Assembly: GCF_011801145.1 (NCBI RefSeq)
Contig: NZ_CP046172.1
Location: 4,092,001 to 4,156,000 of the forward strand
Length of the DNA stretch: 64,000 nucleotides
DNA from: Nocardia arthritidis
GTDB taxonomy: Bacteria; Actinomycetota; Actinomycetes; Mycobacteriales; Mycobacteriaceae
Reading direction: 5' to 3'
Shown here one piece after another: positions 38,758-63,041 of the stretch (within the stretch, counting starts at the first letter, position 1; the number at the start of each line of letters is the position of its first letter). The notes below the pieces were generated by a model, which saw nothing but the letters and a program-made list of their open reading frames with translations, was not told the DNA's origin and searched no databases. A program made the position numbers and the translations under genes.

Positions 38758-39189
38758 CAAGCGCCTTTCGATGATCCACGGTCGGCATCGTGTGGTTCGC
38801 GTTGTCGCCCCGCCGGGTGGCGAGCACGAGGGCAGCGTCACCGGGCTGTCGTAGTATCTACCGGTCAGACGGCCGGTACGGGACAATAGCTGTCGACTTC
38901 CTTCAAGCTGACCTCGACATGGTTCTCCGTCAATTCTTTCAGCTCGGTACCTAGAGTGAGAAGCGTTGCAGCCAGCAAGGTTTCGGTACGGTACGCCCGA
39001 CTATATCGGTATCGCCGGTAGTATTCGGCGATGTTCCATCGGCTCCGTGAACGGGCTTGCTCTGGCGTGTCCGCCGTGGCTCAGCCGGAGGACTTGGAGG
39101 CGGCGGGCGCGTCTCTGTTCGGCTGAACTGTGATCGCGGCGCGCCGGGCGTCGGCAGGATCTTGGAGGGATGGTCCCCGAGCCGAGAGC
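38758..39189. other. Intergenic region with a leader-like peptide frame
   Basis: Upstream of the ligase gene on the minus strand is a 71-codon open frame (38865-39080) with no ATG or GTG. From a TTG at 38978 it would encode 37 residues with an acidic middle (TELKELTENHVEVSLKEVD) and a SYCPVPAV tail. It may be a small peptide gene, or the end of a decayed gene. No other feature is seen. Confidence 0.3.
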
Positions 39190-39229: not shown

Positions 39230-39230
39230 C

Positions 39231-39259
39231 GTCGGGCTGACAGGATTTGAACCTGCGGC
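39231..39259 (-). other. tRNA-Pro-like 3'-end fragment, putative attachment site
   Basis: The minus strand reads CGCAGG-TTCAAAT-CCTG, a complete T arm, followed by TCAGCCCGAC, the 3' acceptor strand and discriminator of a tRNA, most like a proline tRNA. The 5' half, which should contain CGGGCTG and an anticodon arm, is absent: the upstream bases do not fold as a tRNA. A bare 3' end next to its terminator is the usual mark left by an element integrated into a tRNA gene. Confidence 0.6.
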
Positions 39260-39868: not shown

Positions 39869-40702
39869 ATGCGAAACCATCTCAGGTTCCATATCCTCGG
39901 CCCGCTCGAGGTCTGGGGCGAGCGCAGGGTGCGCATCAACAGCCGTCGGGACCGGGTCGTCCTTTCCATGCTGCTGTTGAAGCCGGATCAGATCGTCTCG
40001 GTCGATCGCCTCATCGACGGTGTTTGGAAGGACTATCCGCCGACGACTGCACGGCGGCAGATACAGTCGTGCATCATGCGACTTCGCCGAAGTCTCTGCC
40101 CCGACGGCGATGGCGAAATAATAGAAACCGCTCATCCCGGATATGTTCTCGAGCGCTCCGATCATTTCTTCGATCACTACGAGTTCGTCGAGCGGATGAG
40201 TAAGCTGGTGTCGGCTACCGAGCGTGGTGCCATGGACTGGCCTGCGATCTCCCGAGGTGTCCGAGGAGCACTCTCGTTATGGCGGGGGCACGCTCTGGAT
40301 GGGGTGGTAACACCCTTGGTCGAGGGCGAGGCCGCCCGGCTCGATGAAATGAGATTGGCGGCTGTCGAGTGGTTGATGGATGCGGAGTTGCTGGCGGGCA
40401 AGGACTGTGAGTTGATTGGTGAGCTGATCCCGCTCACCAATAATTATCCTTATCGGGAGCGTTTTCGTCAGCAATTGATGATAGCGCAATACCGCGCAGG
40501 TCGGCGAGGTGACGCATTGACAACTTATCGGACGACTCGTCAGCTGATGCTGGACGAGATCGGAACGGAACCCGGGGATGAATTGAGAATGTTGCACGAC
40601 GCGGTGCTGCACGATGATCTGGCCCGTATCGTCGTCAGAATACCCTGGGTCGAAGGCGCGGATAATGAGCTGTACAGCGAGGGGCCGAGCTTTGTCTGGT
40701 AG
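39869..40702 (+). CDS. SARP-family pathway-specific activator
   Basis: A 277-aa regulator. Residues 1-95 form the OmpR-like winged helix (LRFHILGPLEVWGERRVRI, RDRVVLSMLLLKPDQIVSVDRLIDGVW, PGYVLERSD) and residues 100-255 the BTAD domain (MRLAAVEWLMDAELLAGKDCELIGEL, RYREQ-like YRERFRQQLMIAQYRAGRRGDAL, LDEIGTEPGDELRML). It has no ATPase domain, the usual size for a cluster-situated activator. It is the first gene of the NRPS/FAS-I cluster and runs in the same direction. Confidence 0.9.
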   Translation: MRNHLRFHILGPLEVWGERRVRINSRRDRVVLSMLLLKPDQIVSVDRLIDGVWKDYPPTTARRQIQSCIMRLRRSLCPDGDGEIIETAHPGYVLERSDHFFDHYEFVERMSKLVSATERGAMDWPAISRGVRGALSLWRGHALDGVVTPLVEGEAARLDEMRLAAVEWLMDAELLAGKDCELIGELIPLTNNYPYRERFRQQLMIAQYRAGRRGDALTTYRTTRQLMLDEIGTEPGDELRMLHDAVLHDDLARIVVRIPWVEGADNELYSEGPSFVW

Positions 40703-40853
40703 TGCAAATAAGTTACGCACGATTCGCCGGTCGGCAATATTTCCAACGTTCCGTGCTACCATCGCATGAGCGGTGGACAAGTTTGCGATCTCAGCGATTC
40801 ACGATTCGAAATTTCATGGCACTGCGCATCGACTACGCGAGGGGGTTGTAGTA

Positions 40854-41612
40854 GTGGCCAATGATCACCCGGGTGCCGGAGACGAGTCGGCGACAATCGA
40901 CACGGAGTCGGCCGTCGTATCCGGCAGCCGAACCGAGCTTCATTCGGATACTGCGGCGTTGGTCTTCGAGGGAGTGACGAAGACGTATCGCCGTGGGGGC
41001 GAGACGATCTCGATCCTCGACCAGGCCGACCTCGAAGTTCGCTCCGGTGAAATCGTCGCACTGATCGGGCGAAGCGGTTCGGGTAAATCCACGACGCTGT
41101 ATCTTGCTGCGGCACTGGATGATCCGGACAGCGGGCGAGTGGCTGTGCACGGCGCCGAGCTACGGCCGATGAGCGCCTCGGCACGCGCCGAACTCCGCAG
41201 GCGTCATGTGGGTTTCATCTTCCAGTTCTTCTATCTGATCCCCAGCCTGACCGTACTCGAGAACGTCGCGCTTCCGCTCGTTCTCGATCACCGCAGGGGT
41301 CGCGAGGCCGCGATGAAAGCGCTTGACAGCGTTGGGCTTTCCCATCGGGCGGCCCATGTGCCGAGCGAGCTCTCCGGGGGCGAGATGCAGCGCGCGGCCA
41401 TCGCCCGTGCCATGGTCGGCGAGCCGACGCTGCTGCTCGCCGACGAGCCGACGGGCAGTCTGGACGCCGCGACCGGTGAACGCGTGATGAACCAGTTGGT
41501 GGCGGCTTCCCGCAGGCAGGGCTGCGCGGTTCTGCTTGTCACGCACGACCTCGGCGTAGCGCAGGCGGCGGACCGGATCGTGCGGCTCGAGGGCGGACGG
41601 CTGGTCCAGTGA
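40854..41612 (+). CDS. ABC transporter ATPase, MacB/LolD type
   Basis: A 252-aa ATP-binding subunit. Walker A GRSGSGKST, Q-loop FQFFYLIPSLTVLENVALPL, signature LSGGEMQRAAIARAM, Walker B LLLADEPTGSLD and H-loop LLVTHD are all intact. A GTG start after GAGGGGG is chosen; an earlier in-frame GTG (40773) would add 27 residues unlike the family. The stop overlaps the permease GTG (GTGA). Together they would form a type VII exporter, likely moving the product of the adjacent NRPS cluster. Confidence 0.9.
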   Translation: MANDHPGAGDESATIDTESAVVSGSRTELHSDTAALVFEGVTKTYRRGGETISILDQADLEVRSGEIVALIGRSGSGKSTTLYLAAALDDPDSGRVAVHGAELRPMSASARAELRRRHVGFIFQFFYLIPSLTVLENVALPLVLDHRRGREAAMKALDSVGLSHRAAHVPSELSGGEMQRAAIARAMVGEPTLLLADEPTGSLDAATGERVMNQLVAASRRQGCAVLLVTHDLGVAQAADRIVRLEGGRLVQ

Positions 41613-44131
41613 CGGCTTTGCTCTGGCTTTCCATCAGAAGGGTCTGGCGCCAGCCTATCCGCACAGTGCTGGCCGTGCTCGCGGTCACAGGGGGTGTCGG
41701 GCTCAGTGTGGCGGTGTTGGTCGAGGCACGCAGCGTCGATGCCGCCAACGAAAGCTTCAACGTCCAGATGGGTGGTGGCGATCTCGATGCCGTCCGGGTC
41801 GTCGGACCGACTCGAAGGGGCGGAATCACCCCGAGCGATATGGCCCGCATCGAGTCAACCGCGGGCGTTGCGACGGCTGTGCCTGTGGTTCAAGCGATTA
41901 CGCTGGTAGAGACCGGCGATGCGACGAGGACCGTACTCGCGCTCGGGATCGACTGCCGCAGCCAGGCGCTGGTCGGCCAGGTCGGTTGCGTCGACGCCTT
42001 GATCGCGAACGCGAAGGACTCCGACCCGCCGATTCTCTCGGATAAGCTCGCGGGTGCGATCGGTGCCGGAAGTCGGCTGCGCACAGATCATGCCCGAATT
42101 CCGATCGATCCCGAGCGTGCGGTGCCGCAACTCGATGCGCTCAACGACGGTGGCGTCGTCGCGCTTGCATTACCTGTCGCGCAGCGCGTATTCGATCGCG
42201 GCGATAACGTCGATGTCGTCTACGTTCGTCCGCAACCGGGAGTATCGAAAGAGGAACTGCGGCAACGACTCGTCGAGTCCAGTCGGCCCCAGCTCGCGAT
42301 TCTGCGGCCGACCGATCGATCGCCAGGGGTGAACGTCACCGGACAGGTGTTGCCGCTGATCGGTGTCGTCGGTCTGTTCGCCGTCGGGATCGGTGCGATT
42401 CTCGTATTCAATATCGTCGGTCTGTCCGTTGCCGAACGCCGCCGTGATCTCGCCGTGGTGGCCGCTCTCGGCGGGAGTCCGAGGACCGCGGTGTTCGGGG
42501 TCCTCGGTGAGGCTGCGGTATTGGGCACGCTCGGCGGAATTCTCGGCGGGGGCGTCGGGGTTCTGCTGGCACAGCCATTGGTGGCGAGTATGTCGACGTT
42601 GTCCGAGCGGTTCGTCGGGTTGCGCATCAGGCCGGTGATCGAAACCCCATCCCTGGTTTCGGGGATATTGATGGGTGTCGTTGTCGCCGTGCTGGCCGCG
42701 CTTGTCCCGGCATGGCGAGCGGGCCGGACGAATGTTGTTGCGACCTTGACAAATCGGGACGTTGGCGCGGAAAGCCGCGGCCGCCCGCTACGTGGCCGTG
42801 CTGCGGCCGCAGTGATCGTCGTCGGCATCGCCGTGTCGATATCGGAAGCGACGCGCCGGGGTGGCGGACTGGCCTGGTGGCAGTCGCCGACCAGCGCGGT
42901 GGTGTTCGGTATCGCCACTGTCGCAACGCTATTGGCGGTGACTCAGTTGACGGCGATGGTCCTCGGGATCGTCAACCGCCGGATGGGCGATCGGGCCGGC
43001 GTCTTCCGGGTGGCGCTCGCGAACATCGCATCGGATCCTCGGCGTACCTCGGTGATGGCGTCGGCCGTCGCCGTTGCCGTCGCACTGTCGACGATTCTGG
43101 CGATGCTGATACCGGCAATGAAGAATGCGTCTTCGGCGACCACCGGTGCGTACGCCGACGGCCGAGTCGCGGTGAACGTACTTCCATTTTCGGATTCGTC
43201 CGAATTCGATGCGAAACTTTCCCCGGAACTCATCGATCGGTTGGCCCGCATTCCGGGGGTGGCCGCGGTCGAACGAGAATCGTATATGGAGGTCGGCAGC
43301 GACGGCGCCGATCAGATCGCGGTCACCGCGGCAGAGCATCCGACTTTTCCGTTCGCCGTGGTAACCGGAGACGCAGGAGCGGCGGTGCTGGCACGGGGAG
43401 ATGTGCTCGTCGGCGCGATGCTCGCAAGGGAACGCGACTTGGCGGTCGGATCCACGCTTTCGATTCCCACCGGCAACGGCGACCTGAAGGTGACCGTCGG
43501 TGCAATCTGGGAGAACGCCAATAACGCCGGACGGATCGTGACCGTCCCTTGGCAGATGTTCGAGCGAATATGGGGGCCGCAGCCGCCCGATCCTTTGTTC
43601 CTCAGACCGGCGCCGGGTGTCACCGTTGACCAGCTGGCGTCGAACGTCCGAGCCGCGGACGTGGACCCGGCGCTTCGGGTGGCGACCCCGACCGAGCTCG
43701 CGGCCGAGGGCGCCGACTCGACCAAGCCCTATCTCACTCCCTTTTGGGCGCTGCAGCGGGGGCTCCTCCTCGTGGCATTCATCGCGACAACTTCGAGCCT
43801 CTTGCTCATCGGGTTGCAGCGACGCCGAGAAGTCGGGGTGCTCTCGGCCTTGGGTCTGTCTCCGGCCGCGCTGGGGCGTCTCGCTATCTACGAGGCCGGT
43901 GCGGTCGGCATCGTCGGCGCATTATTGGGTGCTGCGGGCAGCCTGATCATTTACGAAGCCCTCCGGAACCAGGCGCTGTTTCTGGTCGGGTTCCGGCCGC
44001 CGTTCGATATCGACATCGCCGATGTGCTGCTCTATGTTCTGCTGTCGATCGCCGTTGTGCTGGTCGGCACGGTCGTCCCCGCGATCCGGACAGCGCGGCA
44101 GCCGATCGTGGAGGCCCTCCAGTACGAATAG
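41609..44131 (+). CDS. ABC transporter permease, FtsX/MacB type
   Basis: An 840-aa permease with a GTG start overlapping the ATPase stop. It has an N-terminal helix and extracytoplasmic domain, then two FtsX-type helical bundles (VLPLIGVVGLFAVGIGAIL, LSVAERRRDLAVVAALGGS, and in the second half RGLLLVAFIATTSSLLLIG, LQRRREVGVLSALGLSPAALG), ending RTARQPIVEALQYE as usual for the family. The duplicated FtsX layout is typical of actinobacterial antibiotic or lipopeptide exporters. Confidence 0.9.
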   Translation: MTALLWLSIRRVWRQPIRTVLAVLAVTGGVGLSVAVLVEARSVDAANESFNVQMGGGDLDAVRVVGPTRRGGITPSDMARIESTAGVATAVPVVQAITLVETGDATRTVLALGIDCRSQALVGQVGCVDALIANAKDSDPPILSDKLAGAIGAGSRLRTDHARIPIDPERAVPQLDALNDGGVVALALPVAQRVFDRGDNVDVVYVRPQPGVSKEELRQRLVESSRPQLAILRPTDRSPGVNVTGQVLPLIGVVGLFAVGIGAILVFNIVGLSVAERRRDLAVVAALGGSPRTAVFGVLGEAAVLGTLGGILGGGVGVLLAQPLVASMSTLSERFVGLRIRPVIETPSLVSGILMGVVVAVLAALVPAWRAGRTNVVATLTNRDVGAESRGRPLRGRAAAAVIVVGIAVSISEATRRGGGLAWWQSPTSAVVFGIATVATLLAVTQLTAMVLGIVNRRMGDRAGVFRVALANIASDPRRTSVMASAVAVAVALSTILAMLIPAMKNASSATTGAYADGRVAVNVLPFSDSSEFDAKLSPELIDRLARIPGVAAVERESYMEVGSDGADQIAVTAAEHPTFPFAVVTGDAGAAVLARGDVLVGAMLARERDLAVGSTLSIPTGNGDLKVTVGAIWENANNAGRIVTVPWQMFERIWGPQPPDPLFLRPAPGVTVDQLASNVRAADVDPALRVATPTELAAEGADSTKPYLTPFWALQRGLLLVAFIATTSSLLLIGLQRRREVGVLSALGLSPAALGRLAIYEAGAVGIVGALLGAAGSLIIYEALRNQALFLVGFRPPFDIDIADVLLYVLLSIAVVLVGTVVPAIRTARQPIVEALQYE

Positions 44132-44299
44132 CCGCACTACCACTCGACAGCGAACCCGCTGACCTCCGTGTGGGTCAGCGGGTTTCTGTTTTCTGAAAGT
44201 CGTTGCGCGAAAACAGAATAGAGCTCAGCTGAGAACGTGATGATGCCGGCTGTGGCTAGGGTCGCTCCTAACGTCGAGCACAGCAGGGAGGGGCCGGAG

Positions 44300-47200
44300 A
44301 TGGACACTTTGTGGGGATTGGTCGATGGGGTGGCAAAGCGATCTCCGTCGCGCACCGCGGTGACAGGTGCGGATGGGGCATTCACCTACGAGGAATTGAT
44401 GCGGCGGGCGCGGGACATTGCCGCGGGGATTCGGGCACACGGGCTCGGCCGAGGCGATGTGATCGGTGTGGCCATGGACCGCACCAAGCAGCTACCCGCT
44501 GTCCTGCTCGGAATCTTGGGTGCGGGTGCGGCATATTTGCCACTGGATCTCGAATGGCCGAAAGCGCGCATTGAAACGATGGTGTCCGAGGCTCAGGCGA
44601 AAATGGTGATCGTCGAGGACTTCTCCTTCGATCCCACAATCGAAGTACCGATCGTGTGCGCTACCGATCTGCACAATGGATCGTCGATAGATAGCAGCGA
44701 CGCCACTGCCGAAGATCTCGCGTACGTGATTTTCACTTCCGGCTCGACCGGAAAACCCAAAGGGGTCATGGTGGAGCACGCCGGTGTGATCGGCGTGCTG
44801 GAGTCCTTCGCCGAAATTCTCCAGCTCGATTCGGACTGGACGTTGGTAGCGGTGACCACGTTGACCTTCGATATTTCGGTGCTCGAGATCTTCTTGCCGC
44901 TGGTGACCGGGGGCAGTCTCGCCATCGCGACGGAGCGGCAGCAACGGGATCCGAACCTGCTGGCCGAGCTGCTCGACCGAGCCGAAGCAACGGTGTTGCA
45001 GGCGACCCCGATCACCTGGCGGTTGCTGTGCGAGGCGGGCTGGCCGGGCCGGCCGGGATTGATCGGGTTGTGTGGCGGTGAGCAGATGCCCGCCGACCTG
45101 ATCGCGCCGTTGCTCGAGCGTGGCGTACAGCTCTGGAATGTCTACGGCCCCACCGAGACAACGATCTGGGCGACAGCGGAGCGAATCACCGAAGCGGTGC
45201 CCCGCCCATCTATCGGCAGGCCCTTGCCCGGGTATTACGCCTACATCCTCGACAGGGCGCTGGAGCCGATGCCGATCGGTGCGCGCGGCGACCTGTGGAT
45301 CGGCGGCAGCGGCGTGGCACGAGGCTATCTGGGCGCCGCGGCGAAGACCGGTGCGGACCGTTTCCGAACCGACCCATTCGCGCCTCAGCCGGGTCGGATG
45401 TATCGGACCGGAGATCGGGCGCGATTTCTGCCCGACGGCCGGATCGAATTCCTGGGGCGCGAGGACGACCAGGTGAAGATCCGCGGTTTCCGTATCGAAC
45501 CAGGGGAAATCGAAGCCGCACTAGCGAGGCATCCGCAGGTCCAGGCCGCGGTGGTCACGGCGCCCGAATTGCCGGATGGTGAACGCAGGCTGGTGGCTTA
45601 CGTTCGAACCGATTTGGCGGCCGACGAGCTCGATATTCTCGCCGATCATGCCAGGACGCTGCTGCCGAGCTATATGGTTCCGGTCGATTGGGTGAAAGTC
45701 GGCTCGTTCCCGCTGAACACCAACGGAAAGATCAACCGCGGCGCGCTGCCCGCGCCGCAGCCAACGGCCGGGCGAGCCCCGAAGTCGCCGCCGCGGACCG
45801 ATATGGAACATGAGATCGCCCGACATTTCAGCCGAGTTCTGCGGAAAGCCGATATCGGTCGGGATGAAGACTTCTTTCGGCTCGGCGGTCATTCGCTCTT
45901 GGCAATCGAGGTCTGTGCGGGCCTCTCGGAAATGACCGGTCGGGATATCAGCCCGTATCTGTTGTTCGAGAATCCCACCGTGGCGGGCCTGGCGGCATTG
46001 TTCGCCGATCCTGGAGCGTTGTCCACTGTCACCACAATTGAGCGGGCACCCGAAGACTTGCCGAGGCAACCGTCGTTCGCGCAGCAGGGTTTGGCATTCC
46101 TGAATATGATGACCGGCGGCGATCCGGACGCGTTCTTCAACCAGCGCACCGCTTTCCGGATTCGCGGCCGCTTCGACAAGGCCCGGTTGGATCTTGCGCT
46201 CACCGAGCTCATCGCACGGCACGAGGTGCTGCGCACAACCATCCACGGCGAACCGATCACCAATGTGGAACTGCACCCGGCGCGGCCGTACGTATCGGAT
46301 TTCCTCGATGTGAGCACGCTCCCGGAGAAGGAACGGGTGGCTGCCGCAGTGGCGGCGGCCACCACGGCCTCGGAGACTTCGTTCGACTTGACCAGTACGC
46401 CGCTGCTGCGCTGTCTGCTGATCCGGATCGGTCCCGACGACCATGCGCTGATGTTGTCCCTATCCCATTTCGCCGCCGACTGGGAATCGCTGGCGATCGC
46501 ATTTCGTGAGATCGCCGAGGTGTACGAAAACGGCGTCGGCACATTGCCCGAATTGCCGATCCAATACCACGATTACGCGCAATGGCAGCGTGGTCTGGCG
46601 ACCACGGAGCTGCCTCGTCAGTTCCAATACTGGAATGACCGCTTGAGCGGCATACAGCCGATGCGGCTGCCGGAGTCGAAACCGTGGCCGGGCCAGGCGT
46701 CCCCCAACGGACGATCGATACAATTCGACATTCCGGACACGCTGCGCGAGGCGGTGGTGCGGCTCGCGCAGCAACATCAGGCCACATTGTTCATGACCCT
46801 GCTCAGCGCGTTCTATACCCTGATCTATCAACGGACCGGATGTGCGAAACCGCTTGTCGCGGCCTTCGCGCAAAACCGCCTTCGTCCCCAGACGCGTCCG
46901 CTGATCGGTATCTTCCCGAATATCTATGGGTTGACCGCCGATCTCAGCGACGAGTTGCGGTTCATCGACGTCGTAGACCAGGTTCGGGCGGCGACACTGG
47001 ACGCCGCACACAATGCCGACGTTCCGTTCCATATGCTCCTCGCCATCGAATCGGTCGCGAAGGCGCTGGATCGGGGCTTGTCGAATTCCGTCCTCTTCTA
47101 CGTCATCGAGGGACGGCCGTGGAATCTCGAGCTGCCTGGTTTGGCTATCGATCCATGGGCCGAAGAGATCGAGTCCACAGAATATCCGCCCGCCGCGAAT

Positions 47201-47431
47201 GGCGAGCCCGATGAGATCAATATCGGGCCGGTGGATCTCGATCTCACCTTCCATGCGGACGCCAGTTCGCTGGTAGGTACCTTGGCCTTCAACAATACGG
47301 TTTTCGACGAGGCCGACATGACGCGATTCGTGGTCGACTATCTCGTTCTGCTGGAGGCGGCTGTCGAGAATCCGGAATCGGATCTGCGCAGTATCTGTGC
47401 GTTCGTCGACCTATCCGGGGCGAGCCGATGA
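44300..47431 (+). CDS. Nonribosomal peptide synthetase, A-PCP-C, predicted glycine-activating
   Basis: A 1,043-aa NRPS starting after GGGAGGGGCCGGAG. The A domain (about 10-490) has FTSGSTGKPKG, YGPTETTIW, TGDRARFL and NTNGKINR with the catalytic Lys. Specificity residues read by eye from the core motifs are D-I-L-Q-L-G-V-I-W-K, one change from the textbook glycine code. The PCP serine is Ser532 in LGGHSL. The C domain (about 575-1040) has SHFAADW (His723, Asp727) instead of HHxxxDG: the second His and the Asp are kept but Gly is Trp. Stop and next start share ATGA. Confidence 0.9.
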   Translation: MDTLWGLVDGVAKRSPSRTAVTGADGAFTYEELMRRARDIAAGIRAHGLGRGDVIGVAMDRTKQLPAVLLGILGAGAAYLPLDLEWPKARIETMVSEAQAKMVIVEDFSFDPTIEVPIVCATDLHNGSSIDSSDATAEDLAYVIFTSGSTGKPKGVMVEHAGVIGVLESFAEILQLDSDWTLVAVTTLTFDISVLEIFLPLVTGGSLAIATERQQRDPNLLAELLDRAEATVLQATPITWRLLCEAGWPGRPGLIGLCGGEQMPADLIAPLLERGVQLWNVYGPTETTIWATAERITEAVPRPSIGRPLPGYYAYILDRALEPMPIGARGDLWIGGSGVARGYLGAAAKTGADRFRTDPFAPQPGRMYRTGDRARFLPDGRIEFLGREDDQVKIRGFRIEPGEIEAALARHPQVQAAVVTAPELPDGERRLVAYVRTDLAADELDILADHARTLLPSYMVPVDWVKVGSFPLNTNGKINRGALPAPQPTAGRAPKSPPRTDMEHEIARHFSRVLRKADIGRDEDFFRLGGHSLLAIEVCAGLSEMTGRDISPYLLFENPTVAGLAALFADPGALSTVTTIERAPEDLPRQPSFAQQGLAFLNMMTGGDPDAFFNQRTAFRIRGRFDKARLDLALTELIARHEVLRTTIHGEPITNVELHPARPYVSDFLDVSTLPEKERVAAAVAAATTASETSFDLTSTPLLRCLLIRIGPDDHALMLSLSHFAADWESLAIAFREIAEVYENGVGTLPELPIQYHDYAQWQRGLATTELPRQFQYWNDRLSGIQPMRLPESKPWPGQASPNGRSIQFDIPDTLREAVVRLAQQHQATLFMTLLSAFYTLIYQRTGCAKPLVAAFAQNRLRPQTRPLIGIFPNIYGLTADLSDELRFIDVVDQVRAATLDAAHNADVPFHMLLAIESVAKALDRGLSNSVLFYVIEGRPWNLELPGLAIDPWAEEIESTEYPPAANGEPDEINIGPVDLDLTFHADASSLVGTLAFNNTVFDEADMTRFVVDYLVLLEAAVENPESDLRSICAFVDLSGASR

Positions 47432-51714: not shown

Positions 51715-51772
51715 ACCCGCGTTGCCCGGTATATGACTGGTCCGATCTCGGTAGATAAATTATGGGGGGAAT

Positions 51773-52660
51773 ATGGGCCTTCGAATAGTCGCCACTGCCG
51801 TGAACACCGATCAGGACACGGCAAGTTATATCGAACGTGCGGCTCGGGCCGCCATCGCCTGCCTCGATGCGGCCGGCATCGGCGCAGGCGATATCTCGAT
51901 GCTGCTGAATACCGGGGTATATCGGGATTCGAATATCTCTGAGCCCGCTGTCGCCGCGCTGGTGCAGAAACGCGCCGGCATCGGTTTGACATATCGTCGC
52001 AGGCAGTCGCCGACGATGGCGTTCGACGTGATGAACGGCCCGTGCGGCTTCCTGAACGCCGTCCAGATCGGTGCCTGCTTCCTGGTGCGGCCGTCATCGC
52101 GGCGCTGTTTGGTGGTTGCGGGTGATACGCATCCTTCCCTGACCAGGGACCGGCCGACTCCCGACTTCCCCTATATAGGCACCGGAGCCGCCGCGATCCT
52201 CGAACGAGCCGACGACGACTCGGGATTCGGCCCGGTGCACAGTGCGGCGGGCGCAATGAGCGTGACCGGATCGGGCGGCTACGTCGATACCGCCGTCATG
52301 GGCGCCGCCGGCCGGTCACAGGTGACGATTTCGGTCGACGACGGTGCGGAGTGGGATGTGCTCGGTGCAGCCTGCCAAGCGGCGAGAAATTGTCTTCGAA
52401 AGAATGCGCTGGCTCCCGAAAATACCGTCCTGGTCACGTCCGAACCATTTCCTGACTTTGCCGAGCGGATCCGGTCCGGGCTCGGCTTGCAGGGGCAGGT
52501 GTGCCTACCGGATACGAGTGGGAATCCGCATACCTCCGGACTGATATTTGCTTACCACGCCGGGTTGCGGCGTGGATTTCCAGATGACTGCCGGCATCTG
52601 CTGTTCGTATCGGCCGGAAATGGTCCGACGGCGGCGTCCGCTGCGTATCGAATCCGATAG
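51773..52660 (+). CDS. KAS III-like condensing enzyme or acyltransferase, first copy
   Basis: A 295-aa thiolase-fold protein following a GGGGGGAAT site. The nucleophile is Cys91 in FDVMNGPCGFLNA. A His in GNPHTSG and an Asn in SAGNGPTAAS take the positions of the FabH His and Asn, though the loop around His is shorter than in FabH. It is about 25 residues shorter than a usual KAS III. In secondary-metabolite clusters such proteins may condense malonyl units, load starters, or transfer acyl groups to oxygen or nitrogen (CerJ/ChlB3-like). It precedes FAS-I by 14 bases. Confidence 0.8.
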   Translation: MGLRIVATAVNTDQDTASYIERAARAAIACLDAAGIGAGDISMLLNTGVYRDSNISEPAVAALVQKRAGIGLTYRRRQSPTMAFDVMNGPCGFLNAVQIGACFLVRPSSRRCLVVAGDTHPSLTRDRPTPDFPYIGTGAAAILERADDDSGFGPVHSAAGAMSVTGSGGYVDTAVMGAAGRSQVTISVDDGAEWDVLGAACQAARNCLRKNALAPENTVLVTSEPFPDFAERIRSGLGLQGQVCLPDTSGNPHTSGLIFAYHAGLRRGFPDDCRHLLFVSAGNGPTAASAAYRIR

Positions 52661-52674
52661 CGAGGTCGAAAAAT

Positions 52675-55600: not shown

Positions 55601-58600
55601 CGACCGGCGCGATGCTGGTGGAACACCCAGTGAATGGACAGGGGACACAGGTCGAGTTGACCGTCCCATTGTCGGCTGCGGGTCAGGCGGCGGTACTCGA
55701 TCTGCGTATCCGAATCGGCGTGCCGCCCTCGGCGCTGACGGGTGGGGCGCCGGTGATCACCGCCGCGGATGCGGAATCCGCGATGGCCCGACTGCTGGTC
55801 GTCGCGGCCGGATGCGGCGGCGGTGCCCGCGCCGGATTGCCGGAGGTTCGGTTTGACGGCGGTGCACCGGTCGCTCGGCTCGAGGTGCGCTGGACACCGG
55901 AGGTAATCGCCGACCACGCCGGGGCCACGGCAGGCGGCCCGGGGAATTCGTCCGGCGAGCGCGGCCGGGTTGTGCCGGACGTGTTGGTCGGCGTCTGCTG
56001 GCCTGCGGTGTTCGCCGTGCTCGGCGCGGCGACCGGTCCGGACGGCACGAGGGTCATCGAAGGAATGCTCGATCTCGTTCATCTGGATCATCAGGTGCGA
56101 CTGCTGGCCGACGTGCCCGAGCGGGAAACGGGTCTGATGATCCGAGCGGAGGCAGCCACGGCGGTCGACACCGATCTGGGACGAATCGTCGAGGTACGGG
56201 TGCGGGTCGACGCGAGTTCCGGCGACGGCGGACCCGCCGTACCGACGGCGGAGTTGGTGGAGCGATTCGTGGTCCGCGGGCGAACCGGTGATGCGATAGT
56301 GCCCGAACCACCCAGGGCCGCAGGCACGGTCGGCGACTCCGTAGCCGCCACCGCGCGGCGCCGTCGGTGCGACCGCACGCTGACGGCGCCCCGCAACATG
56401 TCCGCATTCGCGGAGGTGTCCGGCGATCACAATCCGATCCACACCAGCGGGGCGGCCGCGCTGTTGGCGGGCTTGCGGGAGCCGATTGTGCACGGCATGT
56501 GGCTGTCCGCCGCGGCGCAGCACGCGATCTCCGCAGGCGACAGCGATGAAAACCGGCCCGCCAGCACCATTACGGCGTGGACCGTCCGTTTCGTTGCGCC
56601 GGTGACTCCCGGTGCGACGATCGCGTTACGGGCCGATCGAACAGCCATCGACGCGGGCGCCGAAATCCTGGAGGTTTCCTGCCGGGTCGACGGCGAGATC
56701 GTGCTGTTGGCCACCGGACGGGTGGCGCCGCCGCGGACCGTTCTCGCCTTTCCCGGCCAGGGGGTGCAGCGCAAAGGCATGGGGTTGGCGGCATGCGCCA
56801 GATCGCATGCGGCCAGGCAGATCTGGGCACAGGCCGACCGTCATACTCGCGTCGAACTGGGTTTCTCCATCTTGGCCGTGGTGCGCGACAACCCCGTCGC
56901 GATCACTGTCCGCGGCATCGAACACCGTCATCCCGATGGCGTGCTGAACTTGACGCAGTTCACCCAGGTCGCCCTGGCAACCCTCGCCTGCGCCCAGGTC
57001 GCCGAACTTCGTGAGGCCGGTGTGCTGGTGGCGGACCCGCCGCTGTGCGGACATTCGATCGGCGAGTTCAGCGCCCTGGCCGCGGCGGTCGGTGTCATGT
57101 CGCTGGAAACCCTGCTGACCGTTGTGTTCCGGCGCGGAACCCTGATGCATGCGCTCGTACCGCGTGATCCGCTGGGGCGCAGCAACTATCGAATGGCCGC
57201 GATCCGACCGTCCGAGTTCGGGTTGTCCGATGCGCAGGTGATTCCCTTCGTTGCCGAGATAGCCTCTGCCGCAGGGGAATTCCTTCAAGTTGTGAACTTC
57301 AATGTGCGCGACGCCCAATATTCGGTTGCCGGGACCGTCGCCGGGCTAACCGCCCTGGCGGCCGAAATCGACCGCCGCCGAGCGGAATCCGGTGGCAAAC
57401 GGGCGTTCATCGAAGTTCCCGGCATCGACATACCATTCCACTCCGATGTGCTGCGGCCCGGTGTCACGGAGTTCCGTACGGCGCTGACCGAGCTGCTACC
57501 CACCGCGATCGACCCGAAACAGCTTGTCGGACGCTACATTCCAAATCTGCTGCCCCGGTTGTTCGCACTGGATCGGTCCTTCGTCGCGGAGGTCGCGGCG
57601 CTGGTGCCATCGGAACCACTTGCACAGGTGCTCGCCGACTTCCAGGCTTGGTCGGCCCGCCCGGCAGAGCTCTGCCGGATCCTGCTTATCGAACTGCTCG
57701 CCTGGCAGTTCGCCAGTCCGGTGCGTTGGATCGAAACTCAGGACCTGCTTTTCACCGAAATCGAAGGCGGTGGTCTCGGCATCGAGCGATTTGTCGAGGT
57801 CGGTCTGGCCGAGGCGCCGACAGTCGCCAATTCGGCTGCCGCGACGGTGAAGGCTCGGGGACCAGCGTGGCCGGTGGCGATACTCAATGCCGAACGCGAC
57901 GCGGCGGTCCTATTCGGTGCCGACACCGATCCGGACACCGAGGCCGAAGTAGCCGAATCGGATGACGAGAGATCGGTAGCGGCGCCCCCACCGATGACGA
58001 CATCGGTCCCGGCCGATGAACTTCCGGTGCCCGTGCCGAGCGGTCAACGGCCCGAGGACATCTCGTTCACCGCTGCGGACGCCACCAGGGTATTGCTGGC
58101 GACGTGGGCCAAGCTGCGGATAGACCAGATCGGCTCAGCGGACACAATCGAGACGCTGTGTGACGGAGTGTCGTCACGGCGCAATCAGGTGCTGGTCGAT
58201 CTGGGCGCGGAATTGTCACTCGGCGCGATCGACGGCGCCGCGGACGCGGATATGGTCGCCCTGTCGGCGACGGTCAACAAAATGGCCCGCACTTACAAGC
58301 CATTCGGTCCCGTGTTGACGGGATCGCTCGACGGACACCTTCGCAAACTGCTCGGCCCGTCCGGTCGCCGACCGGACGGGATTGCCGAGCGAGTCCGTAA
58401 TCATTGGCTACTCGGCGCGGGGTGGGCTGCACATGTGACAGCGGAGCTGGTGCTGGCCACCCGGGACGGGAACAGCGCGCGCGGTGGTGAATTGGGTGAT
58501 CCGGCCTTGATCCGGCCTGGTGACGGACCCGCGGTGGATGCGCTCATCGATGCCGCGGTGCATACGGTCGCGAACCGGCACGGAGTAGTCGTCGGATTGC

Positions 58601-61600
58601 CCGCTGACACCTCGGGTGCGTCGAGACCGGCGGTAGACGCCGCTGCACTCGACGAACTCGGCGCGCGTATCGCGGGCCGGGACGGCGTGCTGGCCTCGAT
58701 GGCTCGCCTCGTCCTGGACAAGCTGGCCCTGACCGAACAGCCGGTGGAGCCGATGCGGATGGACAACACCGAGCTGGTGGACCTGGTGTCCGCGGAATTG
58801 GGCTCGGAGTGGCAACAGGTGGTAACCCCGGTTTTCGATGCGCGTCGAGTCGTCCTATTCGACGATCGGTGGGCGAGTGCCAGAGCAGATCTGGCCGATA
58901 TCTGGGTGGATTCCGGCGCGAACGCCGCCGGTCGCAATTTTGCCGGAGCCGGCGAAATCGTTGCCGCGCAAGCGCGATGGTGGCGCAACCGGGCCGACGC
59001 CGCGGCCGCATCGGAACTCGCCGAGCTCTACGAACGGATCGAACTGGCGGCTTACGACTGCGCCGCGGGGGAGTTCGCCGCGGACGTCGCGGTGGTGACG
59101 GGAGCCAGCGCGGGTTCGATCGGAGCCGCGGTGATCAGGCGATTGCTGGCCGCGGGTGCCACGGTGGTCGCGACGACGTCACGGCTGGACGAGCAGCGGC
59201 TGACCTTCTATCGCGACCTGTACCGGGACAATGCCCGGGTCGGGGCCGCACTGTGGGTGGTACCGGCGAATATGGCGTCGTTCTCCGATGTCGATGCGCT
59301 GGCCGCCTGGATCGGCGAGGCCGTCGTCGACCATTCCGGTGGGAGTTCGGTCCCGGTCAAACCGGCGCTCATCCCGACGCTGCTGTTCCCGTTCGCCGCC
59401 CCGCAGGTGCTGGGAACGCTGTCGGACGCGGGCGCTCGTACCGAGTTGGAAATGCGCGTACTGCTCTGGTCGACGGAACGACTCATCGGCGGGCTGGCCG
59501 CGCTCGGCGCGGATACCAGCGTCGATGCCAGACTGCATGTCGTACTGCCGGGATCGCCCAACCGCGGCATGTTCGGCGGTGATGGCGGCTACGGCGAAGC
59601 CAAGGCGGCACTGGACGCCATCGTCGCGAAGTGGACCGCCGAGCGCGGCGACCGCGGTGCGCACGGGTGGGCCGATCGCACCACCTTGGTGCACGCCCAG
59701 ATCGGTTGGGTTCGTGGCACCGGGCTGATGGGTCACAACGATCCGTTCGTGGACGCAGTCGAAGCCGCCGGAGTCCGCACCTGGTCCCCGGACGAAATAG
59801 CCGAGCAGTTGCTTGTCTGGTGTAAGCCCGACGCCCGAGCGCGTGCGGCCACTGAGCCGTGCTTGCCCGATCTCACCGGTGGACTGGCCGAGGCGGAGCT
59901 GCATCTGGCCACCCGTCCAGCGGGATCGGACAGCCCTGGGGATGGCGCGATCGGCGGTAACGCGGCGCCAACCATCGCCGCGTTGCCCGCCCCGCCGATG
60001 CGTCCTACGGAGTTGCCAGTGCCGGATTGGCCCGAGGTCGCGGCCGCCCCCGAGGAACTGGTGGTCATCGTGGGCGCGGGCGAATTGGGTCCATGCGGTT
60101 CGGCGCGTACCCGGTTCGAACTGGAGGTCGAGGATCGATTGTCGGCTGCCGGTGTCGCCGAGCTGGCCTGGGTCACCGGCATGATCACCTGGGAGCACAC
60201 CCCGGAACCCGGTTGGTACGACACCGCGACCGGAGACCCGGTACCCGAGGCAGAGGTCTGCGAGCGATACCACGACGCCGTTGTCGCACGCTGCGGCATC
60301 CGCCCGTACGCCGACGACGGCGAAATGACCGTCGGCCCCGATGGTTCGGTGACGGCGCCCTTGTTGACGTCGGTGTACCTCGATGAGGATCTGACATTCG
60401 CGGTCCGCGGCGAGGAGGACGCGCGCGCCTTCCAGATCGCCGATCCGGAGCACACGGTGATCGCACCACTCCCGGACTCGACCGACTGGCAGGTCACCCG
60501 CAGGGCTGGTACGGAGATTCGAGTGCCGCGGCGGCTCAAACTGACTCGGACCGTCGGTGGACAGGTCCCGACCGGATTCGACGCCACCCGGTGGGGTATC
60601 TCGCCCGACCTGGCGGCCTCGATGGACCGGGTCGCGCTCTGGAACGTCGTCACCACCGTCGACGCGTTCCTGAGTGCCGGATTCAGCCCGGTCGAGTTGA
60701 TGCGCTGGGTGCATCCGACGATGGTGGCCAACACCGTCGGAACCGGAATGGGTGGCGCGCGGTCGGTGCGGCGGATGAACGTCGATGTGCTGCTCGGCAC
60801 GGATCTACCGAACGATCTACTCCAGGAGATGCTGCCGAATATCGTTGCCGCGCATGTCGTCCAGTCGTACATCGGCAGCTATGGGCCGATGGTGCATCCG
60901 GTGGCGGCATGTGCGACGGCGGCCGTTTCGGTGGAAGAAGGAGTCGATAAAATCCGCCTCGGTAAGGCCGATTTCGTGGTTGCGGGCGGTGTCGACGATA
61001 TCGACATCTTCTCGGTCGTCGGATTCGGTGCGATGTCGGCCACCGCCGACTCCGCGGAGATGGCGGCCAAAGGTCTTGCCCCACAGCAATTTTCCCGCGC
61101 CAATGACCGCAGGCGCGGCGGGTTCGTCGAATCTCAGGGCGGCGGAACGGTTCTGCTCGCGCGCGGAAGCGTCGCGGCCGAGCATGGGTTGCCGGTGCTC
61201 GGCGTCGTCGCCTATGCCCACTCGTTCGGGGACGGAATTCACACCTCCATCCCGGCGCCCGGGCTCGGAGCGCTCGGCGCGGCGCGCGATGGTGCGGAAT
61301 CGGAGTTGGCCACCCGGCTACGCCGGTTGGGGGTCGCTCCGGACGATGTCGCGGTGGTGTCGAAACACGACACGTCCACACTCGCGAACGACCCGAACGA
61401 GGCCGAACTGCATGAGCGACTGGCGGATGCACTGGGTCGGTCGGACTCCGCACCGTTGTTCGTCATTTCGCAGAAAGCGCTGACCGGTCATACCAAGGGC
61501 GGCGCGGCGATATTCCAATTGATCGGGCTGTGCCAGGTCCTGATGCACGGCATCATCCCGCCGAATCGCAATCTGGATTGCGTCGACGCGGTCATGTCCG

Positions 61601-61980
61601 AGTATCGCCACCTGGTGTGGCCGACCGAACCGCTGCGCTTCGACGGCCGGTATCCGCTCAAGGCCGGCCTGGCCACCAGCCTCGGCTTCGGCCACGTGTC
61701 GAGTGTGCTGGCCGTGGTGCATCCGGAGGCGTTCGTGCAGGCTATCCCGGCCGAGCGGCGCGCCGACTATCGGAGGCGTGCCGGTGATCGTGCGGCGGCG
61801 GGCCGACAGCGAATGGCCGAGGCGATGTGCGGTGGCGCCCCACTCTATGACCGGCCGGTCGATCGCCGGCTCGGCGACGACGGTGAACCGGCCGATCGGC
61901 TGCGCGATCAGGAGGCCAGGATGCTGCTCGATTCGGCCGCCCGCCTCGGCAGCGACGGTGTGTACACCGTTGATCATTGA
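52675..61980 (+). CDS. Multifunctional type I fatty acid synthase (mycobacterial FAS-I architecture)
   Basis: A 3,101-aa enzyme, near the roughly 3,070 of mycobacterial Fas. Domains with active residues: acetyl transferase (GYSQG, Ser154), FMN enoyl reductase (SPILLAGMTPT at 423, EGGRAGGHHSWEDLD near 570), hot-dog dehydratase (GDHNPIH, His1252/His1256), malonyl/palmitoyl transferase (FPGQG near 1357; GHSIGEF, Ser1461), ACP (DGVSSRRNQ, Ser1833), ketoreductase (TGASAGSIG at 2142, Tyr2306, Lys2310) and ketosynthase (Cys2746, His2898, Lys2934, His2939). All look intact. In mycobacteria this gene is usually followed by acpS; here it lies between two KAS III genes behind NRPS genes, so a dedicated role in the cluster is inferred. 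Confidence 0.93.
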   Translation: MKIGNSAERVHSGWRPLNRSTDGVRIPLLDRIANGERYALAFGGQGSDWLDSLAATVQDNGLERELGRLVDEAATIVEPLRPQLNLVCPDGFDPITWIGVGDSDTASTRPPDALTSVAISVPGTLLAQLAIMRALKTYGLDPLVTPPALVLGYSQGVLGVQSVVNRDKADVQLLATAQVIGAAARLVARRRGLISIGERMPMSAVSQVDPDRLRAVVMELGAGVDAGVAPVVAIRAGRRRAVVSGPPDQLDRVRRRCAQIATNEERQRAAKVRGGALFAPVFEDLPIEVGFHHPGLAETIELVDQWAARCGLDTSTAVRLASEILIEPVDWVASVERVVETGVTWVLDIGPGDALTRMTAPTVRGRGVGLVAASTRDGQRSLLTPGAAPEIPPAWSKFAPRPVTLPDGRTVTETAFTRLTGRSPILLAGMTPTTVDAKIVAAAANAGYWAELAGGGQVTEQILADRLVELRSLLEPGRAAQFNTLLLDPYLWNLHLGGKRLVQRARAAGAPIDGVVVSAGIPELDRAVALIEELSDAGIEHVAFKPGTVPQIREVLRIAREVPKRMVIVHIEGGRAGGHHSWEDLDDLLLETYAELRAQRNVVICAGGGIGTPERAAEYLTGTWSVAHGYPIMPVDGVLVGTAAMATLEATTSPQVKQMLVEVPGTADWVSAGAASGGIASGRSQLGADIHEIDNTASRTGRLLDEVAGDADAVQARRAEIIAALNSTAKPYFGDVATMTYVQWLSRYVELSYFPVDSGANWADISWRDRFAEMLQRAEARLHPADAGPIPTLFTDPDLLDRARDAIDCLIEAYPQAAATVLHPADSAFFISLCKKPGKPVNFVPVIDADIRRWWRSDSLWQAHDRRYPADQVCVIPGPVSVAGITRVDEPVADLLGRFERATTDILLQRGHAPVAVSARRCVDGAVGSIEVVLVAPDVYWAGRTTVNPVRRLGSIDEWVFQDTEFGASRAAVHTATGAMLVEHPVNGQGTQVELTVPLSAAGQAAVLDLRIRIGVPPSALTGGAPVITAADAESAMARLLVVAAGCGGGARAGLPEVRFDGGAPVARLEVRWTPEVIADHAGATAGGPGNSSGERGRVVPDVLVGVCWPAVFAVLGAATGPDGTRVIEGMLDLVHLDHQVRLLADVPERETGLMIRAEAATAVDTDLGRIVEVRVRVDASSGDGGPAVPTAELVERFVVRGRTGDAIVPEPPRAAGTVGDSVAATARRRRCDRTLTAPRNMSAFAEVSGDHNPIHTSGAAALLAGLREPIVHGMWLSAAAQHAISAGDSDENRPASTITAWTVRFVAPVTPGATIALRADRTAIDAGAEILEVSCRVDGEIVLLATGRVAPPRTVLAFPGQGVQRKGMGLAACARSHAARQIWAQADRHTRVELGFSILAVVRDNPVAITVRGIEHRHPDGVLNLTQFTQVALATLACAQVAELREAGVLVADPPLCGHSIGEFSALAAAVGVMSLETLLTVVFRRGTLMHALVPRDPLGRSNYRMAAIRPSEFGLSDAQVIPFVAEIASAAGEFLQVVNFNVRDAQYSVAGTVAGLTALAAEIDRRRAESGGKRAFIEVPGIDIPFHSDVLRPGVTEFRTALTELLPTAIDPKQLVGRYIPNLLPRLFALDRSFVAEVAALVPSEPLAQVLADFQAWSARPAELCRILLIELLAWQFASPVRWIETQDLLFTEIEGGGLGIERFVEVGLAEAPTVANSAAATVKARGPAWPVAILNAERDAAVLFGADTDPDTEAEVAESDDERSVAAPPPMTTSVPADELPVPVPSGQRPEDISFTAADATRVLLATWAKLRIDQIGSADTIETLCDGVSSRRNQVLVDLGAELSLGAIDGAADADMVALSATVNKMARTYKPFGPVLTGSLDGHLRKLLGPSGRRPDGIAERVRNHWLLGAGWAAHVTAELVLATRDGNSARGGELGDPALIRPGDGPAVDALIDAAVHTVANRHGVVVGLPADTSGASRPAVDAAALDELGARIAGRDGVLASMARLVLDKLALTEQPVEPMRMDNTELVDLVSAELGSEWQQVVTPVFDARRVVLFDDRWASARADLADIWVDSGANAAGRNFAGAGEIVAAQARWWRNRADAAAASELAELYERIELAAYDCAAGEFAADVAVVTGASAGSIGAAVIRRLLAAGATVVATTSRLDEQRLTFYRDLYRDNARVGAALWVVPANMASFSDVDALAAWIGEAVVDHSGGSSVPVKPALIPTLLFPFAAPQVLGTLSDAGARTELEMRVLLWSTERLIGGLAALGADTSVDARLHVVLPGSPNRGMFGGDGGYGEAKAALDAIVAKWTAERGDRGAHGWADRTTLVHAQIGWVRGTGLMGHNDPFVDAVEAAGVRTWSPDEIAEQLLVWCKPDARARAATEPCLPDLTGGLAEAELHLATRPAGSDSPGDGAIGGNAAPTIAALPAPPMRPTELPVPDWPEVAAAPEELVVIVGAGELGPCGSARTRFELEVEDRLSAAGVAELAWVTGMITWEHTPEPGWYDTATGDPVPEAEVCERYHDAVVARCGIRPYADDGEMTVGPDGSVTAPLLTSVYLDEDLTFAVRGEEDARAFQIADPEHTVIAPLPDSTDWQVTRRAGTEIRVPRRLKLTRTVGGQVPTGFDATRWGISPDLAASMDRVALWNVVTTVDAFLSAGFSPVELMRWVHPTMVANTVGTGMGGARSVRRMNVDVLLGTDLPNDLLQEMLPNIVAAHVVQSYIGSYGPMVHPVAACATAAVSVEEGVDKIRLGKADFVVAGGVDDIDIFSVVGFGAMSATADSAEMAAKGLAPQQFSRANDRRRGGFVESQGGGTVLLARGSVAAEHGLPVLGVVAYAHSFGDGIHTSIPAPGLGALGAARDGAESELATRLRRLGVAPDDVAVVSKHDTSTLANDPNEAELHERLADALGRSDSAPLFVISQKALTGHTKGGAAIFQLIGLCQVLMHGIIPPNRNLDCVDAVMSEYRHLVWPTEPLRFDGRYPLKAGLATSLGFGHVSSVLAVVHPEAFVQAIPAERRADYRRRAGDRAAAGRQRMAEAMCGGAPLYDRPVDRRLGDDGEPADRLRDQEARMLLDSAARLGSDGVYTVDH

Positions 61981-61991
61981 AAGGAGTCATT

Positions 61992-63041
61992 GTGCCAACT
62001 CCAAGATTCGAATCCATTGGCGTACACCTGCCGACGGCATCACTCTCGACCGCCGAAATGCTCGCGGAGATCGGCGATCGGCTGACCGTGGACCTGGCCC
62101 GGGTCACCGGTGTCCGGGAACGGCGGGTATACAGTCGCACCGAAAACGACTACGAGGATTCGTTCGCGCTGGCGAAAAAGGCCGCGAATATCTGTTTGGC
62201 GAACTCTCGATACAGTGCGCGGGATCTCGACATCGTGATCTCGACATCGATTACCCGCACCAGGGATCGGACCAAATTCTGCTTCGAGCCGCCATTCAGT
62301 CTGATGCTCCGCAATGAACTCGGCGCACCGGAAGCCGCGTATTTCGATATTTCCAATGCGTGCGCCGGGATGATCACCGGTGTGATGGTGCTGGATCGAA
62401 TGATTCGCGCGGGTGTGGTCGAAAATGGGCTCGTGGTCAGCGGGGAGCAGATCACGCCGATCGCCGAGACCGCGGTTCGGGAGATCGTCGGTGACCTCGA
62501 CCCTCAGTTCGCCGCGCTGACAGTGGGTGATGCCGGTGCCGCCGTAATACTCGACGCTGACGGTGGCCCCGGCGACCTCATCGATTATGTGGAGACGATG
62601 ACCTGTGCCGAATACGCTGAGTTGTGTATCGGTATGCCCAGCGACAAGAGCCAAGGCATCGCGATGTACACCGACAGTGTCTCGATGCACAACGCCAACC
62701 GGTACCTTCAGGGTATTCAGTGGGCCATCGATTATTTAGCGGCACAGGGGAAGTCGTTCGATTCCGAGGGTTTCGACTTCGTCATCCATCACCAGTTCAG
62801 CTCGACTGCGATCGCACAGATCCAGGAAATCAGCGAGCGGGAACTGGGATTACCCATGCCGCGGAGCCTGTTGACACTGGAACGATTCGGCAATACGTCC
62901 TCGACGTCGCATTTCGTTGTGCTGCACGAGTATCTGCGCCGAGGCGTGATCGAGAAGGGCGCGAAGGTGCTACTGGTGCCGACGGCTTCGGGGATGGTGT
63001 TCGGTCAGCTTTCCGCATCCGTATCTCTCACTGTGGCCTGA
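61992..63041 (+). CDS. 3-oxoacyl-ACP synthase III family protein, second copy
   Basis: A 349-aa FabH-like enzyme starting at a GTG seven bases after AAGGAG, 11 bases after the FAS-I stop. The triad is present: Cys124 in DISNACAGM, His in the HHQFSST motif near residue 256, and Asn in RFGNTSSTS. LTVGDAGAAVIL is the usual glycine-rich segment. It is a full-length, canonical KAS III, unlike the shorter copy before FAS-I. It may prime FAS-I, extend its product once, or offload it onto the peptide. It is the last gene of the cluster in this window. Confidence 0.9.
   Translation: MPTPRFESIGVHLPTASLSTAEMLAEIGDRLTVDLARVTGVRERRVYSRTENDYEDSFALAKKAANICLANSRYSARDLDIVISTSITRTRDRTKFCFEPPFSLMLRNELGAPEAAYFDISNACAGMITGVMVLDRMIRAGVVENGLVVSGEQITPIAETAVREIVGDLDPQFAALTVGDAGAAVILDADGGPGDLIDYVETMTCAEYAELCIGMPSDKSQGIAMYTDSVSMHNANRYLQGIQWAIDYLAAQGKSFDSEGFDFVIHHQFSSTAIAQIQEISERELGLPMPRSLLTLERFGNTSSTSHFVVLHEYLRRGVIEKGAKVLLVPTASGMVFGQLSASVSLTVA

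Follow-up and report, generated by a model that had tools for sequence, protein, structure and literature searches.

A bacterial type I fatty acid synthase probably dedicated to a biosynthetic gene cluster in Nocardia arthritidis

In bacteria, the role described for type I fatty acid synthase (FAS-I) is to supply membrane fatty acids and mycolic acid precursors (PMC3098273). Here, we report a FAS-I gene embedded in a biosynthetic cluster of Nocardia arthritidis, within a stretch of 64,000 nucleotides (the window) that covers positions 4,092,001 to 4,156,000 of contig NZ_CP046172.1. The cluster is a run of eight genes (window positions 39869-63041, all on the forward strand) for a transcriptional activator, an exporter, two nonribosomal peptide synthetases (NRPSs) and two proteins of the ketoacyl synthase III (KAS III) type, KASA and KASB, with the FAS-I gene between the last two. 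We favor, at a probability of about 0.6, the reading that this FAS-I is dedicated to the pathway encoded around it and that the cluster probably sits on a genomic island. The proposed product, deduced from gene content, is a peptide-bearing α-branched lipid.

The cluster enzyme is not the housekeeping FAS-I of its host. An earlier note on this DNA, made from its letters only, had held that it would be, should it prove the only FAS-I of the genome and should close relatives carry the gene without NRPS neighbors, and had proposed looking for a second copy beside acpS. Such a copy exists. In the single contig of 10,014,015 bases (10.0 Mb), the FAS-I marker PF08354 gave three matches at two places, the window copy and, 2 Mb away, a gene for a FAS-I of 3,139 residues, with acpS 11 bases downstream. 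The two enzymes share 63.4% identity over 3,140 aligned positions, and the GC content at third codon positions is lower in the window gene (0.78) than in the housekeeping gene (0.879). Around the window cluster, no real acpS match was found in 94 kb (best, 45% over 22 residues, E 0.72); as a positive control, the search matched 6 of 6 FAS-I/acpS loci from five genomes.

Phylogeny, the other comparison that the note had suggested, likewise separates the two copies. In full-length trees of 29 or 28 chosen sequences, from which the second FAS-I of genome G016, a contig-end fragment, was omitted, the 11 Nocardia FAS-Is taken as housekeeping (adjoining acpS was seen for four: the host's own and those of G069, G103 and G007) form a clade with support of 100/100, and the window enzyme falls outside it. 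Approximately unbiased (AU) tests on the 28-sequence set, which was run without a divergent copy from genome G718, reject its placement inside this clade (p 9.9e-9) and as sister of the host's other FAS-I (p 1.3e-4). The existence of the acpS-linked copy and the tree tests thus rule out that the window FAS-I is the housekeeping enzyme, and the second AU test rules out a recent duplicate of it. Instead, the window enzyme groups with the second FAS-Is of two other Nocardia genomes, G069 and G103 (support 99/99 in the 28-sequence tree and 97/99 in the 29-sequence tree), although we are unsure of its exact sister.

The window FAS-I is complete, as the earlier note had claimed. It is a single polypeptide of 3,101 residues in which AT, ER, DH, MPT, ACP, KR and KS domains follow in FAS-I order (Pfam, motifs), and residues 9-3097, nearly the entire chain, align with solved bacterial FAS-I structures (4v8v, 9pqx and 6gjc). 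Comparison with housekeeping enzymes covered 13 motif stretches, and the active-site letters, whose catalytic role we take as given, are retained in all of them. One change is striking: the nucleophile motif of the first acyltransferase reads GYSQG instead of GHSQG, a variant present in 0 of the 8 other FAS-Is compared. In the protein-database search, the non-self matches listed for the enzyme show 54-59% identity over residues 900-1400. In several FAS-I stretches (L004:3547-10590 on the reverse strand; L170, L177 and L179), an antisense reading frame of between 2,347 and 3,183 residues covers the greater part of the FAS-I gene; such frames are probably a codon effect of high-GC DNA and could mislead automated gene prediction.

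The genes of the run, followed by two features on its left side, are the following (window coordinates).

39869..40702, forward: SARP-family activator of 277 residues with BTAD and Trans_reg_C domains (Pfam PF03704, E 1.8e-35; PF00486, E 9.3e-10).
40773..41612, forward: ATPase of an ATP-binding cassette (ABC) transporter, LolD/MacB-like, 279 residues (PF00005; top NCBIfam match LolD, under its cut-off).
41609..44131, forward: FtsX-type ABC permease of 840 residues (PF02687 in two stretches), overlapping the ATPase gene by 4 bases.
44237..47431, forward: NRPS1, 1,064 residues, with adenylation (A), peptidyl carrier (PCP) and condensation (C) domains in the order A-PCP-C (Pfam, alignment, motifs).
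47428..51714, forward: NRPS2, 1,428 residues, with an A domain interrupted by a methyltransferase, a PCP and a C-terminal C domain (Pfam; solved structure 5wmm; motifs).
51773..52660, forward: KASB (P0001), LstB-like KAS III partner of 295 residues (alignment and motif position, no Pfam match).
52675..61980, forward: FAS-I, AT-ER-DH-MPT-ACP-KR-KS, 3,101 residues (Pfam, motif comparison, PDB matches, trees).
61977..63041, forward: KASA (P0002), LstA-like KAS III of 354 residues from a TTG start (PF08541, PF08545; alignment; motif positions).
37222..38886, reverse: AMP-binding acyl ligase of 554 residues, divergently oriented (PF00501; all listed NCBIfam matches under cut-off).
39231..39257, reverse: repeat identical to the last 27 bases, at the 3' end, of tRNA-Pro(GGG) (sequence comparison).

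Measured from open-frame coordinates, with each frame taken from its first possible start codon, the junctions of the run are, in order, a 70-base gap, a 4-base overlap, a 105-base gap, a 4-base overlap, a 58-base gap, a 14-base gap (KASB to the FAS-I start) and a 4-base overlap (the FAS-I stop with KASA). For KASA, the protein-database record counts 349 residues, versus the 354 counted from TTG. The protein types named in the earlier note, from the SARP activator to the second KAS III, are all present (Pfam, NCBIfam, open frames), and the shared strand and tight spacing hold as described; its count of seven genes does not, the exporter being two genes and the total eight.

The two KAS III-type proteins constitute an LstA/LstB-like, OleA-type pair, which is expected to join two acyl-CoAs, the reaction described for OleA and LstAB (PMC12141560, PMC7064751). 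KASA is 53% identical to the LstA-like proteins of plasmid clusters from Rhodococcus and Streptomyces, and KASB is 41% and 39% identical to the respective LstB-like proteins. These clusters, which stood in for the lipstatin producer's own sequence in our comparison, hold the lst gene set: A, B, a ligase, an epimerase-type dehydrogenase, an NRPS and a formyltransferase. LstA is described as using Cys128, His271 and Asn305, and a Glu60 mutant of LstB as inactive (PMC12141560); in OleA, Glu117 acts in the neighboring subunit and, followed by a proline, is found in all but two of the OleA proteins compared in that report (PMC7064751). Accordingly, KASA retains a Cys-His-Asn triad (motifs SNACAG, VIHHQF and RFGNTSS), and KASB has Glu57-Pro58, of which Glu57 would be the same residue as LstB Glu60. 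KASB further has a cysteine in the Cys column and no histidine in the His column of KASA; its Asn column holds an asparagine, unlike the aligned LstB-like proteins.

What sets the window apart is the order of these genes. In 22 of 22 related loci (L057-L076, L121 and L122; not included are L078-L081 and L077, in which A likewise comes before B), A directly precedes B with 17-98 bases between the matched stretches. The available DNA of these loci, which for L069 extends little past B, showed no FAS-I. The window order, B, FAS-I, A, is both reversed and split. Since PF08354 occurs at only two places in the genome and the FAS-I gene separates two genes that are neighbors in all 22 other loci, we consider that its placement is not due to chance. 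The survey drew on 3 of 85 plasmid records and on part of the 119 genomes with KASB matches.

The best non-self match of KASA is 61% identical (among 7,995 scored candidates from 5.8 billion proteins searched). Among the loci fetched, the closest relatives are L060 of Nocardia brasiliensis and its near-copies L061 and L062 (KASA 61%, KASB 47-48% over 254 residues); the latter two match L060 in A and B, the genes scanned there. Trees leave the placement of KASA unresolved and weakly group KASB (81/81) with L060-L062 and L122. The company of the pair varies. Six loci have lst-type neighbors (L057, L058, L063, L064, L066 and L067), as does L075, but without a formyltransferase match; in L070-L074, L076 and L121, A, B, C and D are accompanied by no more than a partial NRPS match; and L059, L065 and L068 have neighbors of other types. 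In L060 (L060:10001-16353) and in L122 (L122:5668-11768, at 1.88 Mb of the host's own genome), the OleA-type pair is followed by a fusion of an ABC1 kinase and a class-III aminotransferase, which suggests amination of the condensed lipid; further partners are a ligase in L060 and a P450 in L122. The fusion and ligase downstream of the N. brasiliensis pair rule out that this pair is the nocardiolactone locus. L121 (L121:7680-13939), at 6.07 Mb of the host genome, is a separate lst-type locus in which A, B, C and D are accompanied by a 397-residue protein that resembles part of a Rhodococcus NRPS. No match to the window FAS-I or NRPSs was found in the flanks read at L060 and L122. Judged by gene content, the window adds FAS-I plus NRPS to the known partner sets of A-B pairs.

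FAS-I was found in 147 of 148 Nocardia genomes, the host included, and two matches were found in six: the host, G007, G010, G016, G069 and G103. In G007, two FAS-I/acpS loci on two contigs (L159; L160/L161) are identical across the KS region compared, so that this may be a duplicated locus, by recent duplication, or an assembly artifact. The other four carry a distinct second FAS-I (4 of 147 other Nocardia genomes), with no acpS beside it in the stretches read, and three of these lie near genes for polyketide synthases (PKSs) of the fatty acyl-AMP ligase (FAAL) type. G069 (L117:1608-19461) and G103 (L157/L158) have consecutive genes for FAS-I, an alpha/beta hydrolase and a PKS, a second type of cluster equipped with a FAS-I, the hydrolases being 85% and the PKSs 72% identical; the G069 PKS reads FAAL-ACP-KS-AT-DH-KR-ACP, and its G103 counterpart is presumably also FAAL-type, given this identity. 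In G010 (L119:3730-12249, L120:43-5343), the second FAS-I is near a GMC oxidoreductase and a FAAL-PKS that also contains an enoyl reductase. In G016 (L162:2-5219), a cyclase-like gene overlaps the FAS-I stop and is followed by a GMC oxidoreductase, the upstream side being off the contig. The data neither demonstrate nor reject a single origin for the second copies of the window, G069, G103 and G010 (AU p 0.29).

Across the family, a scan that scored at most two candidates per genome, so that copy counts are minimum values, matched FAS-I in 368 of 401 genomes. Outside Nocardia, second matches occurred in nine genomes of group g6 (2.3-3.2 Mb; presumably Corynebacterium) and in G514, G636 and G718; the G514 and G636 matches are either partial or split. 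G718, which belongs to another genus, has a whole and very divergent second FAS-I (L192:10474-19461) with genes for a glycosyltransferase-like and an LCP-family protein downstream; this FAS-I might serve envelope glycolipids. Going by the four Nocardia genomes with a distinct second copy, dedicated FAS-Is may recur in bacteria.

These copies also bear on the notion that the cluster FAS-I is a spare housekeeping-type enzyme brought in by chance, making ordinary fatty acids. Its active-site motifs are the same as those of the housekeeping enzyme and would permit this, the nine g6 genomes also gave two matches, and duplicate FAS-Is are normal in Corynebacterium. We nevertheless regard it as very improbable: the gene splits a pair that is otherwise adjacent, it lacks a neighboring acpS and branches outside the Nocardia housekeeping clade, and the second FAS-Is of four other Nocardia likewise lie in biosynthetic surroundings.

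The NRPSs bear on what is built with the acyl chains. NRPS1 and NRPS2 each begin with an A domain; neither has an N-terminal or starter C domain, and each C domain follows a PCP (Pfam). The A-domain pocket of NRPS1, read by eye from the alignment, is DILQLGVIWK, which by the key that we assume to apply is glycine-like. That of NRPS2, also read by eye, is tentatively DIEDVGTVIK; its C motif is HHIAGDE, and its residues 4-887 match solved structure 5wmm. As the line lacks a starter C domain and ends in a single C domain, transfer of the peptide to an external nucleophile, perhaps one on the lipid, is the likely mode of release.

The earlier note had instead deduced an acylated, methylated short peptide. 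Such a product would be a conventional lipopeptide, with a FAS-I acyl chain on the N terminus of the peptide and with KAS IIIs that only prime or extend. FAS-I, the two NRPSs and the methyltransferase being co-directional is in line with this, and an AMP ligase lies 1 kb upstream. However, NRPS1 opens with its A domain, the KAS III pair is LstAB-like, and the ligase gene is divergently oriented, on the far side of the tRNA-Pro repeat; the ligase is an unproven candidate for the pathway. We thus consider a lipopeptide of this kind unlikely, and the deduction is not supported. More likely, the lipid takes shape as an α-branched β-keto chain.

Returning to a dedicated FAS-I that supplies an OleA-type pair, a possible pathway can be outlined from the predicted functions. 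Acyl-CoA, released by the MPT domain, is the expected output of a bacterial FAS-I. The window FAS-I would build acyl chains and release them in this form, once charged by the AcpS of the housekeeping locus, on which it would have to depend. The KASA-KASB heterodimer would take two acyl-CoAs, probably from the window FAS-I, and condense them in a Claisen step without decarboxylation to an α-branched β-keto chain. We propose a direct hand-over from FAS-I to the pair because OleA and LstAB are described as acting on acyl-CoA, and because the FAS-I gene sits between the two halves of the pair. NRPS1, with its glycine-like pocket, and NRPS2, with its methylating (probably N-methylating) domain, would assemble a short peptide, which the terminal C domain of NRPS2 may transfer to an amine or hydroxyl group, either on the lipid or on a small acceptor. 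Expression would be activated by the SARP protein, and the product would leave the cell through the ABC exporter.

Alternatively, the pathway encoded in the window may be incomplete, with β-keto reduction and ring closure or amination provided in trans by the other LstAB-type loci of the genome. The host does have the A, B, C, D locus at 6.07 Mb and the A-B-aminotransferase locus at 1.88 Mb; each of these, however, has an A-B pair of its own, and nothing was seen to connect them with the window cluster. We hold this option as tentative and rather doubtful.

Several observations weigh against a dedicated enzyme on an island. OleA-type pairs elsewhere show no adjoining FAS-I, so that the housekeeping FAS could feed KASA and KASB as well. 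The grouping of the window FAS-I with the G069 and G103 copies is supported at only 75 in a tree of the KS region (49 of 67 rows, 18 supposed near relatives of kept rows having been dropped by hand); moreover, the window enzyme is the longest branch of the 28-sequence tree, and one of its two sisters there, the G103 copy, is compositionally odd. The C motif of NRPS1, SHFAADW, is atypical and could indicate a weak domain. In the 94 kb examined, no LstD-like dehydrogenase or formyltransferase was matched, and a search for an LstC-like ligase returned only general AMP-ligase matches at 24-29%, the best being the divergent ligase. The earlier note had suggested looking for the gene order in other Nocardia; no second case was found in any other genome by the searches made, in which the contexts of many listed protein relatives were unexamined. 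As for an island, no tyrosine integrase (PF00589) was found near the cluster, the closest match lying about 270 kb away (serine integrases were not searched). No empty insertion site was recognized, with no shared genes (>45% identity, half length) in 11 stretches from five relatives around or near tRNA-Pro or its fragments. In GC content, the cluster (0.647) does not stand out from the left flank (0.640), the right flank being at 0.685.

Regarding the rarity of the arrangement, a second case within the genus would be expected to surface as a second FAS-I; since none of the five other double-match Nocardia genomes has the window gene set in the stretches read, the arrangement has been seen once. 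With 24-28% identity to LstC-like ligases, the ligase at 37222-38886 is ruled out as an LstC.

The case for an island rests on tRNA-Pro repeats. Exact copies of the 27-base fragment at 39231..39257 occur at contig position 4163155 and inside a full tRNA-Pro(GGG) gene (4166265-4166339; L005:11265-11339), so that they bracket the cluster. Fragments of the tRNA-Pro 3' end lie near the tRNA in other Nocardia too (e.g., G014, G051 and G100), as at an integration hotspot. A location of the cluster on a tRNA-integrated genomic island is thus likely, if not proven. A whole tRNA within the window was ruled out: ARAGORN found none, and Rfam gave only one sub-threshold CRISPR-repeat match in 38700-40100, the element being a tRNA-Pro 3' fragment. 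An open frame of 162 codons (38951-39439, reverse strand) without a Pfam match crosses this fragment and is probably spurious.

The cluster combines features of known systems. Like the lst cluster, it has an A/B pair of KAS III proteins, with Cys-His-Asn in A and Glu-Pro in B, and an NRPS nearby, but B and A are reversed and separated by FAS-I, there are two NRPSs, one with a methyltransferase, and a dehydrogenase D, a formyltransferase F and a convincing ligase C are missing from the 94 kb. Its FAS-I has the same catalytic units, near full length and with motifs intact, as the FAS-Is of mycolic-acid actinomycetes; unlike these, it is away from acpS, in a biosynthetic cluster and outside the Nocardia housekeeping clade. 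Among the loci fetched, the closest A/B relatives are in N. brasiliensis, with no match to the window FAS-I or NRPSs in the flanks read. The parallel with pathway-specific FAS pairs of fungi, drawn in the earlier note, is fair as an analogy, and four other Nocardia have distinct second FAS-Is, three of them near FAAL-type PKS genes. HexA/HexB is described as a whole type I FAS devoted to one natural product, with direct ACP-to-ACP transfer proposed for its hand-over (PMC8533459), whereas the window FAS is one bacterial polypeptide, its expected hand-over is by acyl-CoA, and its partners are an OleA-type pair and NRPSs rather than an iterative PKS. In the open-licence literature searched, covered in part and by title and abstract start, we found no description of a bacterial FAS-I inside a biosynthetic cluster. 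What appears new is the combination of known enzyme families, which we did not find described, together with a case for repeated recruitment of FAS-I.

We put at even odds a broader view, that Nocardia holds one or more secondary-metabolism FAS-I lineages, counterparts of the fungal metabolite FASs, with one branch feeding FAAL-PKS lines and the window branch feeding an OleA-type heterodimer whose genes it separates, which would yield a new class of peptide-bearing α-branched lipids made largely from one cluster out of malonyl-CoA and amino acids. The union of FAS-I with an OleA-type pair makes chemical sense, acyl-CoA being both the expected output of the one and the substrate of the other, and the window arrangement could serve as a marker for mining lipid natural products. 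The several second copies may provide examples of how FAS-I changes once freed from primary metabolism, and the two FAS-Is of this genome would give a direct genetic handle on dedication. A FAS-I borne by a cluster and distinct from the housekeeping copy would show that bacteria, like fungi, can devote a whole FAS to a single natural product.

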